Assembly (NCBI RefSeq): GCF_003403315.2
Contig: NZ_CP048407.1
Coordinates: forward strand, 1,116,001 to 1,180,000
Source of the DNA: Thermaerobacter sp. PB12/4term
Lineage (GTDB): Bacteria > Bacillota > Sulfobacillia > Thermaerobacterales > Thermaerobacteraceae
Length of the DNA: 64,000 bases
Direction: 5' to 3'
Shown here: positions 10,822-15,033 of the stretch, piece by piece
Position numbering within the stretch: position 1 is the first letter of the stretch
How the letters are laid out: each line of letters opens with the position of its first letter
Notes under the pieces: generated by a model
The model's database searches: none
What the model saw: only the letters and a program-made list of their open reading frames with translations
What the model was told of the DNA's origin: nothing
Program-made: the position numbers and the translations under genes

Positions 10822-11079
10822 GCCGGCTCTGCACCGCCCGGATACACGGCCGCGGCGCGCCGGCACGCTCGCTGCCCGCCGGGCCTCCATGCCGGGCCGG
10901 CGGGCGGCGGTCATGTCGCTGCCACGGGGTGGTGGTGCCATGCCCATGCCGCGGCCGCGCCGGGCCCGGCGGCGGGCGATCCGCCGGGCCGGGTGGATCG
11001 CCCCGCTAGGCCGCCGGCCCCTGCTGCCCCCTTGCCCGCGCCCAGGTAAAATGAGATCAGAACGACGGGAGGGATGCCC

Positions 11080-12702
11080 ATGGCCGGGAGCCCGCGGCGG
11101 CGGGGCCGGCAGGACCGGGCGCGCCGGGCCCGGCCGCAGGCGGAGCCGCTGCCCATCGTCAAGGGGGCGGACGAACCGGTCCTGCGCACGCCGGCCCAGC
11201 CCGTGGCCCGGGTGACCCGGGAAATCCGCCAGCTGCTGGACCGGATGGCGGCCACCATGTACGCCGCCGATGGGATCGGCCTGGCGGCTCCCCAGGTGGG
11301 CGTGTCGAAACGCGTCATCGTCGTCGACGTGGGCGACGGGCTGATCGAACTGATCAATCCGGAGATCGTCCGGCGGGGTGAGGAGGTGGAGGCTGCGTAC
11401 GAGGGCTGCCTCTCCCTGCCCCGCCTGCTGGCGGAGGTCGAGCGGCCCACCTCGGTGCAGGTCACCGGCCTGGACCGCCGCGGCCGGCGCATCTGGATCG
11501 AGGGCGAGGGCGTGCTGGCCCGCTGCCTGCAGCACGAGATCGACCATCTGGACGGGGTGCTGATCACCGACCGGGCGCGCAAGGTGGTCGAGCTGCCGCC
11601 GGAGAGCGACCTGCGGGTGGTCTTCATGGGCACCCCGGCCTTTGCCGTGCCCAGCCTGGAGGAACTGCTGCAGCGCCAGGTGCGGGTCGTGGGCGTGGTG
11701 ACCCAGCCCGACCGGCCCCAGGGGCGCGGCCTGGCGCCGGCGGCCCCGCCCGTCAAGGCGCTGGCCCAGGAGTACGGCATACCCGTGCTCCAGCCCGAGA
11801 GGCTGGACGAGCAGGTGGTGGAGCAGCTTCAGGCCTGGCGGCCCGACCTGCTGGTGGTGGTCGCCTACGGCAAGATCCTGCCCCCGGCGGTGCTGGCGGT
11901 ACCACGCCTGGGGGCGATCAACCTTCACGCCTCCCTGCTTCCGCGCCACCGCGGGGCGGCGCCGATCCAGCACGCCATTCTGGCCGGGGACACCGTCACG
12001 GGTGTCACCACCATGTGGATGGACGAGGGGCTGGACACGGGCGACATCATTTTGCAGCGAGAGATTCCGCTCGATGAGCAGACCACCGCCGGCCAGCTCC
12101 ATGACCGGCTGGCGCGGCTGGGGGCCCAGCTGCTGGGCGAAACCCTGCGCCTGGTGGCCGAGGGCAAGGCGCCGAGACAGCCCCAGGACGGGGCCCGGGC
12201 CACCATGGCGCCCAAGCTTCGCCCTGAGGACGAGTGGGTGAACTGGGCGGACGATGCGACCCGGGTGGCCCGCCGCATCCGGGCGCTGGACCCGCGGCCC
12301 GGCGCCCGGACCACCTGGCGCGGGCAGGTGCTCAAGCTCTTCGGTGCGGGCACCGTCCCGCCCCAGGCCGCCGGCCCGGACCTCCCCCACCAGGAGGAAC
12401 CGGCCCCCGGCGGAGGGGGCGGGGAGGGCAGCCTGCCCCCCGGCGAGGAGGGCGGCGCGCCGGTGCCCCCGGGCACCGTGGTGGCCATCACCCCCCAGGC
12501 CGTGGCCGTCCGCTGCGGCTCGGGCCTGGTGTGGATTCGCCGGCTGCAGCCCGCGGCCCGGCGACCCATGACGCCGCTGGAGATGGTCAACGGCTACCGC
12601 CTGGAGGTGGGCGAGCGACTGGGCGACCCCCCGGCCGGCACCTCCGCTGCGCCGGCCGGGGGTGGCGCAGGCGCACCGCAAGGCCAGCGGGCACAAGCCT
12701 GA
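11080..12702 (+). CDS. def-fmt: Peptide deformylase-methionyl-tRNA formyltransferase fusion
   Basis: One uninterrupted frame encodes both enzymes. The N-terminal deformylase has all three metal/catalytic motifs: GIGLAAPQ (residue 65), EGCLS (108) and HEIDH (152-156). Only about 20 residues later formyltransferase begins (LRVVFMGTPAFAVPSL, from residue 178), with NLHASLLPRHRG (Asn281, His283) and LDTGD (Asp319) intact, followed by the OB-type C-terminal domain. That domain contains a Pro/Gly/Glu-rich insert (bases 12360-12475). In most bacteria def and fmt are separate adjacent genes; here the deformylase C-terminal helix is absent or replaced by the linker. ATG 11080 is preferred to ATG 11074 because GGGAGGG ends 6 nt upstream. 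Cytoplasmic; Fmt formylates Met-tRNAi and Def removes formyl from nascent chains. Confidence 0.93.
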   Translation: MAGSPRRRGRQDRARRARPQAEPLPIVKGADEPVLRTPAQPVARVTREIRQLLDRMAATMYAADGIGLAAPQVGVSKRVIVVDVGDGLIELINPEIVRRGEEVEAAYEGCLSLPRLLAEVERPTSVQVTGLDRRGRRIWIEGEGVLARCLQHEIDHLDGVLITDRARKVVELPPESDLRVVFMGTPAFAVPSLEELLQRQVRVVGVVTQPDRPQGRGLAPAAPPVKALAQEYGIPVLQPERLDEQVVEQLQAWRPDLLVVVAYGKILPPAVLAVPRLGAINLHASLLPRHRGAAPIQHAILAGDTVTGVTTMWMDEGLDTGDIILQREIPLDEQTTAGQLHDRLARLGAQLLGETLRLVAEGKAPRQPQDGARATMAPKLRPEDEWVNWADDATRVARRIRALDPRPGARTTWRGQVLKLFGAGTVPPQAAGPDLPHQEEPAPGGGGGEGSLPPGEEGGAPVPPGTVVAITPQAVAVRCGSGLVWIRRLQPAARRPMTPLEMVNGYRLEVGERLGDPPAGTSAAPAGGGAGAPQGQRAQA

Positions 12703-13521: not shown

Positions 13522-15033
13522 ATGGCTGGAACCGGTGAGGGTGACCGGGGGGCGCCGCGCCGGCGCCCCCTTGCCGTGCCGGTGCGGCGGGCGGGAGGCC
13601 GCAGCGGCCGGCCGCGGGCCGGCCGGATCCGCCCGGCGGGAGGCCGCAGCGGCCGGCCGCGGGCCGGCCGGATCCGCCCGGCGGGAGGCCGGGAGGCGGC
13701 CTTCCTGGCCCTGCTGGCTGCGGAAACCGGACCCGTGTACGTCGACCAGGCCCTGGCCCGGCTGCTGGAAGGAAGCGGCCTGCCCGCCCGGGAACGGGCC
13801 CTGGCCACGGAGCTGGCTTACGGGGTGGCCCGGCGCCAGGGGAGCCTGGACTGGGCTCTGGCCCGGTGGGCCCGGCGGCCGCCCGAGCGGCTGGACCCGC
13901 CGGTGCGGGTGGCGTTGCGCCTGGGCGCCTACCAGCTGTGGCACCTGGACCGGATCCCCGACCACGCCGCGGTGGCGGAGTCGGTGGAACTGGTCCGGCG
14001 CCACGGCCCCGGCTACGCCGCCGGGTTCGTCAACGCCGTCCTGCGCCGGGCGGCGCGCCACGGCTTCCCCCACGAGGTCGTGCCCGCCGCCGCGGAGGAT
14101 CTGGAGGCGCACCTGGCGCTGACCCTGGCTCATCCCCGCTGGCTGGTGCGGCGGTGGCTGGAGCGCCTCGGCCCCGAGGAGACCCGCCGGCTCCTGGAGG
14201 CCAACAACCGCATTCCGCCCCTTTCCGCCCGGGTCAACATGCTTCGGGCCGATCCCCGGTCCCTGGCGGCAGCCCTGGCCGCCCAGGGGGTGGCGGTGGA
14301 GCCGGGCCGGTTCCTCCCGGAAGCCCTGCGCCTGGGCCATGGGGTGAGCCCGGCGGAGCTGGAGGCCTTCCAGCAGGGGGCCTTGACCTGGCAGGACGAG
14401 AGCTCCATGCTGGCGGTGCATGTGCTGGACCCCCGGCCCGGCCAGCTGGTGCTGGACGTGGCGGCCGCCCCCGGCGGCAAGTCGACCCACATGGCGGAGC
14501 GCATGGGCGACCGGGGGCGGGTGGTGGCCTGCGATGTCGACCCGGGCCGGCTGGAGAAGGTGCGGGCGGCGGCGCGGCGGCTGGGCCTGCAGTCGGTCGA
14601 GCCCCTGGCTCTGGACGGCCGGCTGCTGCCCCAACGCTTCGCCGGTCAGGCCGACCGGGTGCTGGCCGACGTCCCCTGTAGCGGCCTGGGGGTCATCGCC
14701 CGGCGGCCCGATTTGCGCTGGCGCAAGGCGCCAGAAGACCTGAAGGCGCTGGCGGCCCTGCAGGGGGAGCTCCTGCGCGCGGCGGCGGCCTGCCTCAAGC
14801 CGAGCGGCGTGCTGGTCTACAGCACCTGCACCACCGAGCCGGAGGAAAACCAGCAGGTGGTGGAGGGGTTCCTCCGCGAAGCGGGGGACCGCTTCGCGGC
14901 CGTCGACCTGCGGCCCCGCCTGCCGGCCCCTCTCCGGGACGAGCCGGGCACCGAGCGGGGCTGGCTGCAGCTCTGGCCCCATCGCCATGGAGTCGACGGT
15001 TTCTTCATCGCCTGCCTCCAGCGGCGGCGGTGA
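13522..15033 (+). CDS. rsmB: 16S rRNA (cytosine967-C5)-methyltransferase
   Basis: SAM-dependent m5C methyltransferase. The NusB-like RNA-binding domain starts near residue 57 (REAAFLALL). The catalytic domain has VAAAPGGKSTHMA (SAM loop), DVPCSGLGVI (motif IV Cys) and YSTCTTEPEENQQVV (motif VI Cys). The first 55 residues are Arg/Gly-rich and are encoded by a perfect 45-bp tandem repeat; they are unlike RsmB elsewhere. A 10-bp hairpin (13548-13570) sits just inside the 5' end. The ATG at 13522 has no clear ribosome-binding site, so a downstream start within the repeat region is possible. Confidence 0.92.
   Translation: MAGTGEGDRGAPRRRPLAVPVRRAGGRSGRPRAGRIRPAGGRSGRPRAGRIRPAGGREAAFLALLAAETGPVYVDQALARLLEGSGLPARERALATELAYGVARRQGSLDWALARWARRPPERLDPPVRVALRLGAYQLWHLDRIPDHAAVAESVELVRRHGPGYAAGFVNAVLRRAARHGFPHEVVPAAAEDLEAHLALTLAHPRWLVRRWLERLGPEETRRLLEANNRIPPLSARVNMLRADPRSLAAALAAQGVAVEPGRFLPEALRLGHGVSPAELEAFQQGALTWQDESSMLAVHVLDPRPGQLVLDVAAAPGGKSTHMAERMGDRGRVVACDVDPGRLEKVRAAARRLGLQSVEPLALDGRLLPQRFAGQADRVLADVPCSGLGVIARRPDLRWRKAPEDLKALAALQGELLRAAAACLKPSGVLVYSTCTTEPEENQQVVEGFLREAGDRFAAVDLRPRLPAPLRDEPGTERGWLQLWPHRHGVDGFFIACLQRRR
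13591..13690 (+). repeat. 45-bp perfect tandem repeat inside rsmB
   Basis: Two identical 45-bp units (13591-13635 and 13636-13680) plus the first 10 bases of a third. Because 45 is a multiple of three the frame is kept, giving the peptide AGGRSGRPRAGRIRP twice. Each unit also contains a 9-bp perfect hairpin built on GGCCGGCC. Confidence 0.97.

Follow-up and report, generated by a model that had tools for sequence, protein, structure and literature searches.

A def-fmt gene fusion in Thermaerobacter sp. PB12/4term, old in its class, probably encodes a bifunctional enzyme

The window analyzed here, a 64,000-nucleotide stretch of the genome of Thermaerobacter sp. PB12/4term, contains a gene whose product is very probably a genuine bifunctional enzyme joining peptide deformylase (Def) and methionyl-tRNA formyltransferase (Fmt). 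The fusion is genuine and old in the class to which Thermaerobacter belongs. Judging from the sequence, the product would have both enzyme activities and would remain a single, uncleaved chain. The open frame extends without interruption from position 11074 to 12702 on the plus strand and comprises 542 codons from its first ATG. A Shine-Dalgarno-like GGGAGGG abuts this ATG and is spaced 6 nt from a second, in-frame ATG at 11080; since this spacing suits the second ATG and the first Met is absent from a relative, G004, the start at 11080 appears the likelier one. The gene is preceded by what we take to be a priA-like frame and followed by genes that we recognize as presumably encoding a zinc-peptidase-like protein, rsmB and rlmN, all in the same direction. 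Near-identical repeats (GRSGRPRAGRIRPAGG) occur at 13570-13690, in the part of the open frame that precedes the rsmB core, and are perhaps a tandem repeat ahead of rsmB's true start. The features of the fused gene are as follows:

11067 to 11073, plus strand: GGGAGGG, Shine-Dalgarno-like, 6 nt upstream of the ATG at 11080
11080 to 12702, plus strand: def-fmt fusion gene, 540 aa, 57.8 kDa (calculated)
11155 to 11583, plus strand: peptide deformylase domain (PF01327) with GIGLAAPQ, EGCLS and HEIDH
11584 to 11613, plus strand: junction between the Pfam domains, VVELPPESDL, AlphaFold pLDDT about 94-96
11614 to 12141, plus strand: Fmt catalytic domain (PF00551) with N283, H285 and D321 (residue 1 being the ATG at 11074)
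12214 to 12600, plus strand: Fmt C-terminal domain (PF02911), split by a disordered Pro/Gly-rich insert
12376 to 12429, plus strand: Pro/Gly/Glu-rich insert within the Fmt C-terminal domain, residues 435-452 with pLDDT <50

The initial annotation had described a complete Def followed by a complete Fmt in one chain, and this was confirmed by the single frame, by Pfam and NCBIfam matches and by the motifs. Pfam placed Pep_deformylase at residues 28-170, Formyl_trans_N at 181-356 and Formyl_trans_C at 381-509. The NCBIfam models for def (TIGR00079, 147.6 bits against a cut-off of 103.95) and fmt (TIGR00460, 285.9 bits against 201.5) both scored above their cut-offs. The Def half thus combines peptide deformylase motifs I-III (GxGxAAxQ, EGCLS, HExxH) with PF01327 and TIGR00079 matches above cut-off, and the Fmt half combines the TIGR00460 match with the catalytic N, H and D and with PF02911; GIGLAAPQ, EGCLS, HEIDH, NLHASLLPRHRG and LDTGD are all intact. 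The residues expected to be catalytic in Def (E110, C112, H154, E155, H158) and in Fmt (N283, H285, D321), likewise counted from the ATG at 11074, were invariant in all 25 fused proteins compared, and both halves are under purifying selection. By comparison, a wider segment around the insert (12352-12470) evolves fast, with a dN/dS of about 0.6-1.2, and varies in length among species.

The AlphaFold model of the fusion (pLDDT 88.8, pTM 0.82) shows an ordered junction, in which Def's last strand (170-173) is followed by a short helix (176-179) and by Fmt's first strand (181-186). A Foldseek search with the model returned the Fmt structures 4iqf and 2fmt as top PDB matches, with the deformylase 4dr9 ranked lower. 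It had also been claimed that the Def C-terminal helix used for ribosome binding in E. coli was either missing or replaced by Fmt. In the model, a basic helix of the E. coli type is indeed absent from the Def part of the fusion. Replacement by Fmt did not hold up: such a helix was likewise not found in any of 26 unfused Defs from within and outside the class, whose tails are short or acidic. The lack of the helix in unfused Defs indicates that its absence predates the fusion and that Fmt did not displace it. Peptide deformylases differ by type, and the E. coli-type C-terminal helix is not a defining trait of them all.

The host genome, a single contig of 2,820,915 bp that is 99.99% complete, was searched for any further def or fmt gene and none was found, so that the fusion is its sole Def and its sole Fmt. 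PF01327 matched once, in the fusion gene, and PF00551 matched twice, in the fusion and in PurN. The second Formyl_trans_N protein was ruled out as an Fmt, as it reached only 65.5 bits with TIGR00460 (cut-off 201.5), and was identified as PurN by TIGR00639 (199.9 bits, cut-off 150.1). No second PF01327 match was present in 58 of the 72 fused genomes of the class described below; one was present in most of family f6 and in a few other fused genomes. A relative in the class, G058 (92% complete), had neither a deformylase nor an Fmt match, which would reflect either contigs that are missing or a complete loss of formylation in that lineage.

One-chain Def-Fmt proteins, which the initial annotation had proposed to look for in relatives, proved to be widespread. 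Within the host's class, a stop-free fusion is present in 72 of 154 genomes, which belong to 25 of 48 families. In 69 of them the entire junction was found with a junction profile in one stop-free frame; three more (G007, G068, G148), with both domains in one open frame and a longer linker, were added by direct reading. Eight other class genomes (G008, G043, G054, G078-G080, G116, G144) have one in-frame stop at an otherwise whole junction. As the class also includes unfused lineages, among them those with a single in-frame stop at the junction, the fusion is not obligatory. A 1707-aa open frame in G039 suggested a giant PriA-Def-Fmt chain, which was rejected because no domain other than Def and Fmt gave a match. 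Beyond the class, no fusion was found among the best-scoring matches listed for a 398-genome sample of the phylum, in which each spanning match listed contained at least one stop. A contig scan added 80 loci, mostly from other phyla, none of which was fused where the motif check gave a reading (some gave none).

In the RpoB tree, a 17-genome clade with SH-aLRT support of 100 takes in all Thermaerobacteraceae of the tree and is fused throughout, and the Def+Fmt tree recovers a similar fused clade. The spacing from HExxH to FMG is always 30 codons in this clade, and the fixed 30-codon junction with its PPE-like motif extends over about ten families. Outside the main clade the fused state is scattered, with linkers from 28 to over 70 codons. 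The distribution requires 7 changes of state on the RpoB tree and 8 on the Def+Fmt tree, against about 20 with shuffled labels; these are quick trees in which the class is not cleanly rooted, and the starred branches alone force just 2 changes. From the 7-8 changes it follows that fusion or fission recurred, and the history likely consisted of one old fusion and several later fusions or fissions, their number not being fixed. An origin of the fusion in the adjacent order of def and fmt, as had been suggested, is supported. In many unfused Bacillota the two genes are in the same frame and only one stop separates them, a state one mutation short of fusion. Six unfused loci of the class (L012, L031, L174, L179, L180, L181) show this arrangement.

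These same observations bear on whether the fusion is of any use to the cell. It is quite possible, though less likely than not, that the fusion is real but neutral, the loss of the stop having been hard to undo and having brought no functional benefit. The frequency of single-stop def/fmt pairs in unfused Bacillota, the repeated changes of state and the variable linkers beyond the main clade are all in keeping with neutrality; the concentration of fusions in one class and the fixation of the 30-codon junction with its PPE-like motif over about ten families argue against it. An advantage from coupling Def and Fmt is our inference, and the same picture would result if the stop had been lost neutrally and could not easily be regained.

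Under the favored reading of a functional bifunctional enzyme, the def stop and the fmt start would have been lost in an operon in which both genes were often in the same frame, giving a chain with Def at the N-terminus, Fmt at the C-terminus and a short, ordered junction between them. The Fmt half would transfer the formyl group from 10-formyl-tetrahydrofolate onto Met-tRNA(fMet), and the Def half would later take it off nascent chains. Def acts on nascent chains, whereas the substrate of Fmt is free Met-tRNA; no intermediate is therefore passed between the two sites, and the gain would probably lie in coupled supply rather than in channeling. With a fused gene, Fmt would never be made without a matching Def, and the harmful state, formylation without deformylation, would thereby be avoided. 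A formate-tetrahydrofolate ligase (FTHFS) was searched for in the host genome and was absent, so that the freed formate is not recycled by that route. Coupled supply is the simplest possible benefit, with neutral stop loss a serious alternative.

A separate question is whether the gene gives rise to two products, namely the full fusion together with Fmt alone, the latter produced by initiation within the gene, at the junction, or by cleavage of the chain there. We consider this unlikely, and the related proposal, that the Thermaerobacter junction hides a translation signal and that internal initiation sets the ratio of Def-Fmt to free Fmt, is similarly improbable. What speaks for an internal start is that, across four Thermaerobacteraceae genomes, the gene's minimum of synonymous divergence falls on codons -10 to +11 around FMG (11593-11658), with an observed/expected ratio of 0.23 and a permutation p of 0.001 for the gene-wide minimum. 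This segment ranked third among the non-overlapping windows of 80 genes (200-kb region, three genomes), but in that comparison it sits in the tail of a continuous distribution. Furthermore, a GGAG lies 6 nt upstream of a CTG at the former Fmt start, but CTG is seldom used as a start, and G004 lacks the GGAG. The mRNA at the junction is not unusually open, in contrast to that at the real start, and five other fused groups gave no signal of low synonymous change. The idea that an internal start codon for Fmt is conserved across the class was rejected, as the former Fmt Met position holds ATG, GTG or TTG in just 4 of 42 rows (one row, G007, was misread by the motif), and fused relatives have not kept a start codon there. 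The low synonymous change at the junction was seen only in Thermaerobacteraceae and could mean an internal start.

A sequencing or assembly error that deleted the stop codon, an idea that draws on the usual state of def and fmt as adjacent, separate genes, has a negligible probability and was rejected because 72 genomes carry the fusion: the stretch from 11560 to 11640, which the initial annotation had proposed to re-sequence, contains neither a stop nor a frameshift, and the junction is uninterrupted in 71 further class genomes, including G002 of the same genus, for a total of 25 families.

The Def-Fmt arrangement is unusual but not unprecedented. In the only report on such a fusion that we found in the literature (PMC12690207, Mol Biol Evol 2025, msaf311), def and fmt are fused in four Exiguobacterium genomes, and an E. 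coli def-fmt mutant was complemented by the fused gene. The same report found fmt and def co-localized in 58% of species, and described a second, catalytically complete PDF alongside the fusion in each Exiguobacterium genome; fusions were reported for these four genomes only, and the main text does not mention Thermaerobacter (PMC12690207). In both organisms def and fmt form one uninterrupted coding sequence. Unlike Exiguobacterium, the Thermaerobacter genome studied here has the fusion as its sole Def (one PF01327 match) with no second active PDF, and fusions like it occur in numerous families of a single class. Compared by its published description, the Exiguobacterium fusion, which belongs to a different order of Bacillota, is most likely independent in origin.

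Relative to the separate enzymes, the Def half shares all three catalytic motifs of def and passes the curated cut-offs (PF01327, TIGR00079), but runs on into Fmt; in lacking an E. coli-type basic helix it resembles its unfused relatives. The Fmt half has both domains, the catalytic residues and the predicted fold of fmt (TIGR00460), as in 4iqf and 2fmt, but has no start of its own, carries Def at its N-terminus and contains the disordered insert in its C-terminal domain. ArnA and HypX, which were among the Foldseek matches, likewise have a formyltransferase domain fused to another enzyme, but differ in the partner enzyme, domain order and substrate.

A functional Def-Fmt fusion was therefore already known; new are a range wider than reported and its presence as the sole copy. 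Taken as a whole, two enzymes with opposed roles in the formyl cycle have been fused for a long time, commonly in one class, and in most cases the cell has no other source of the two activities, so that one protein must do all formylation and deformylation. These cells work without E. coli-type ribosome docking of Def, and they offer a test case provided by nature for the question whether Def can function only when it is free or when its helix docks it at the exit tunnel.
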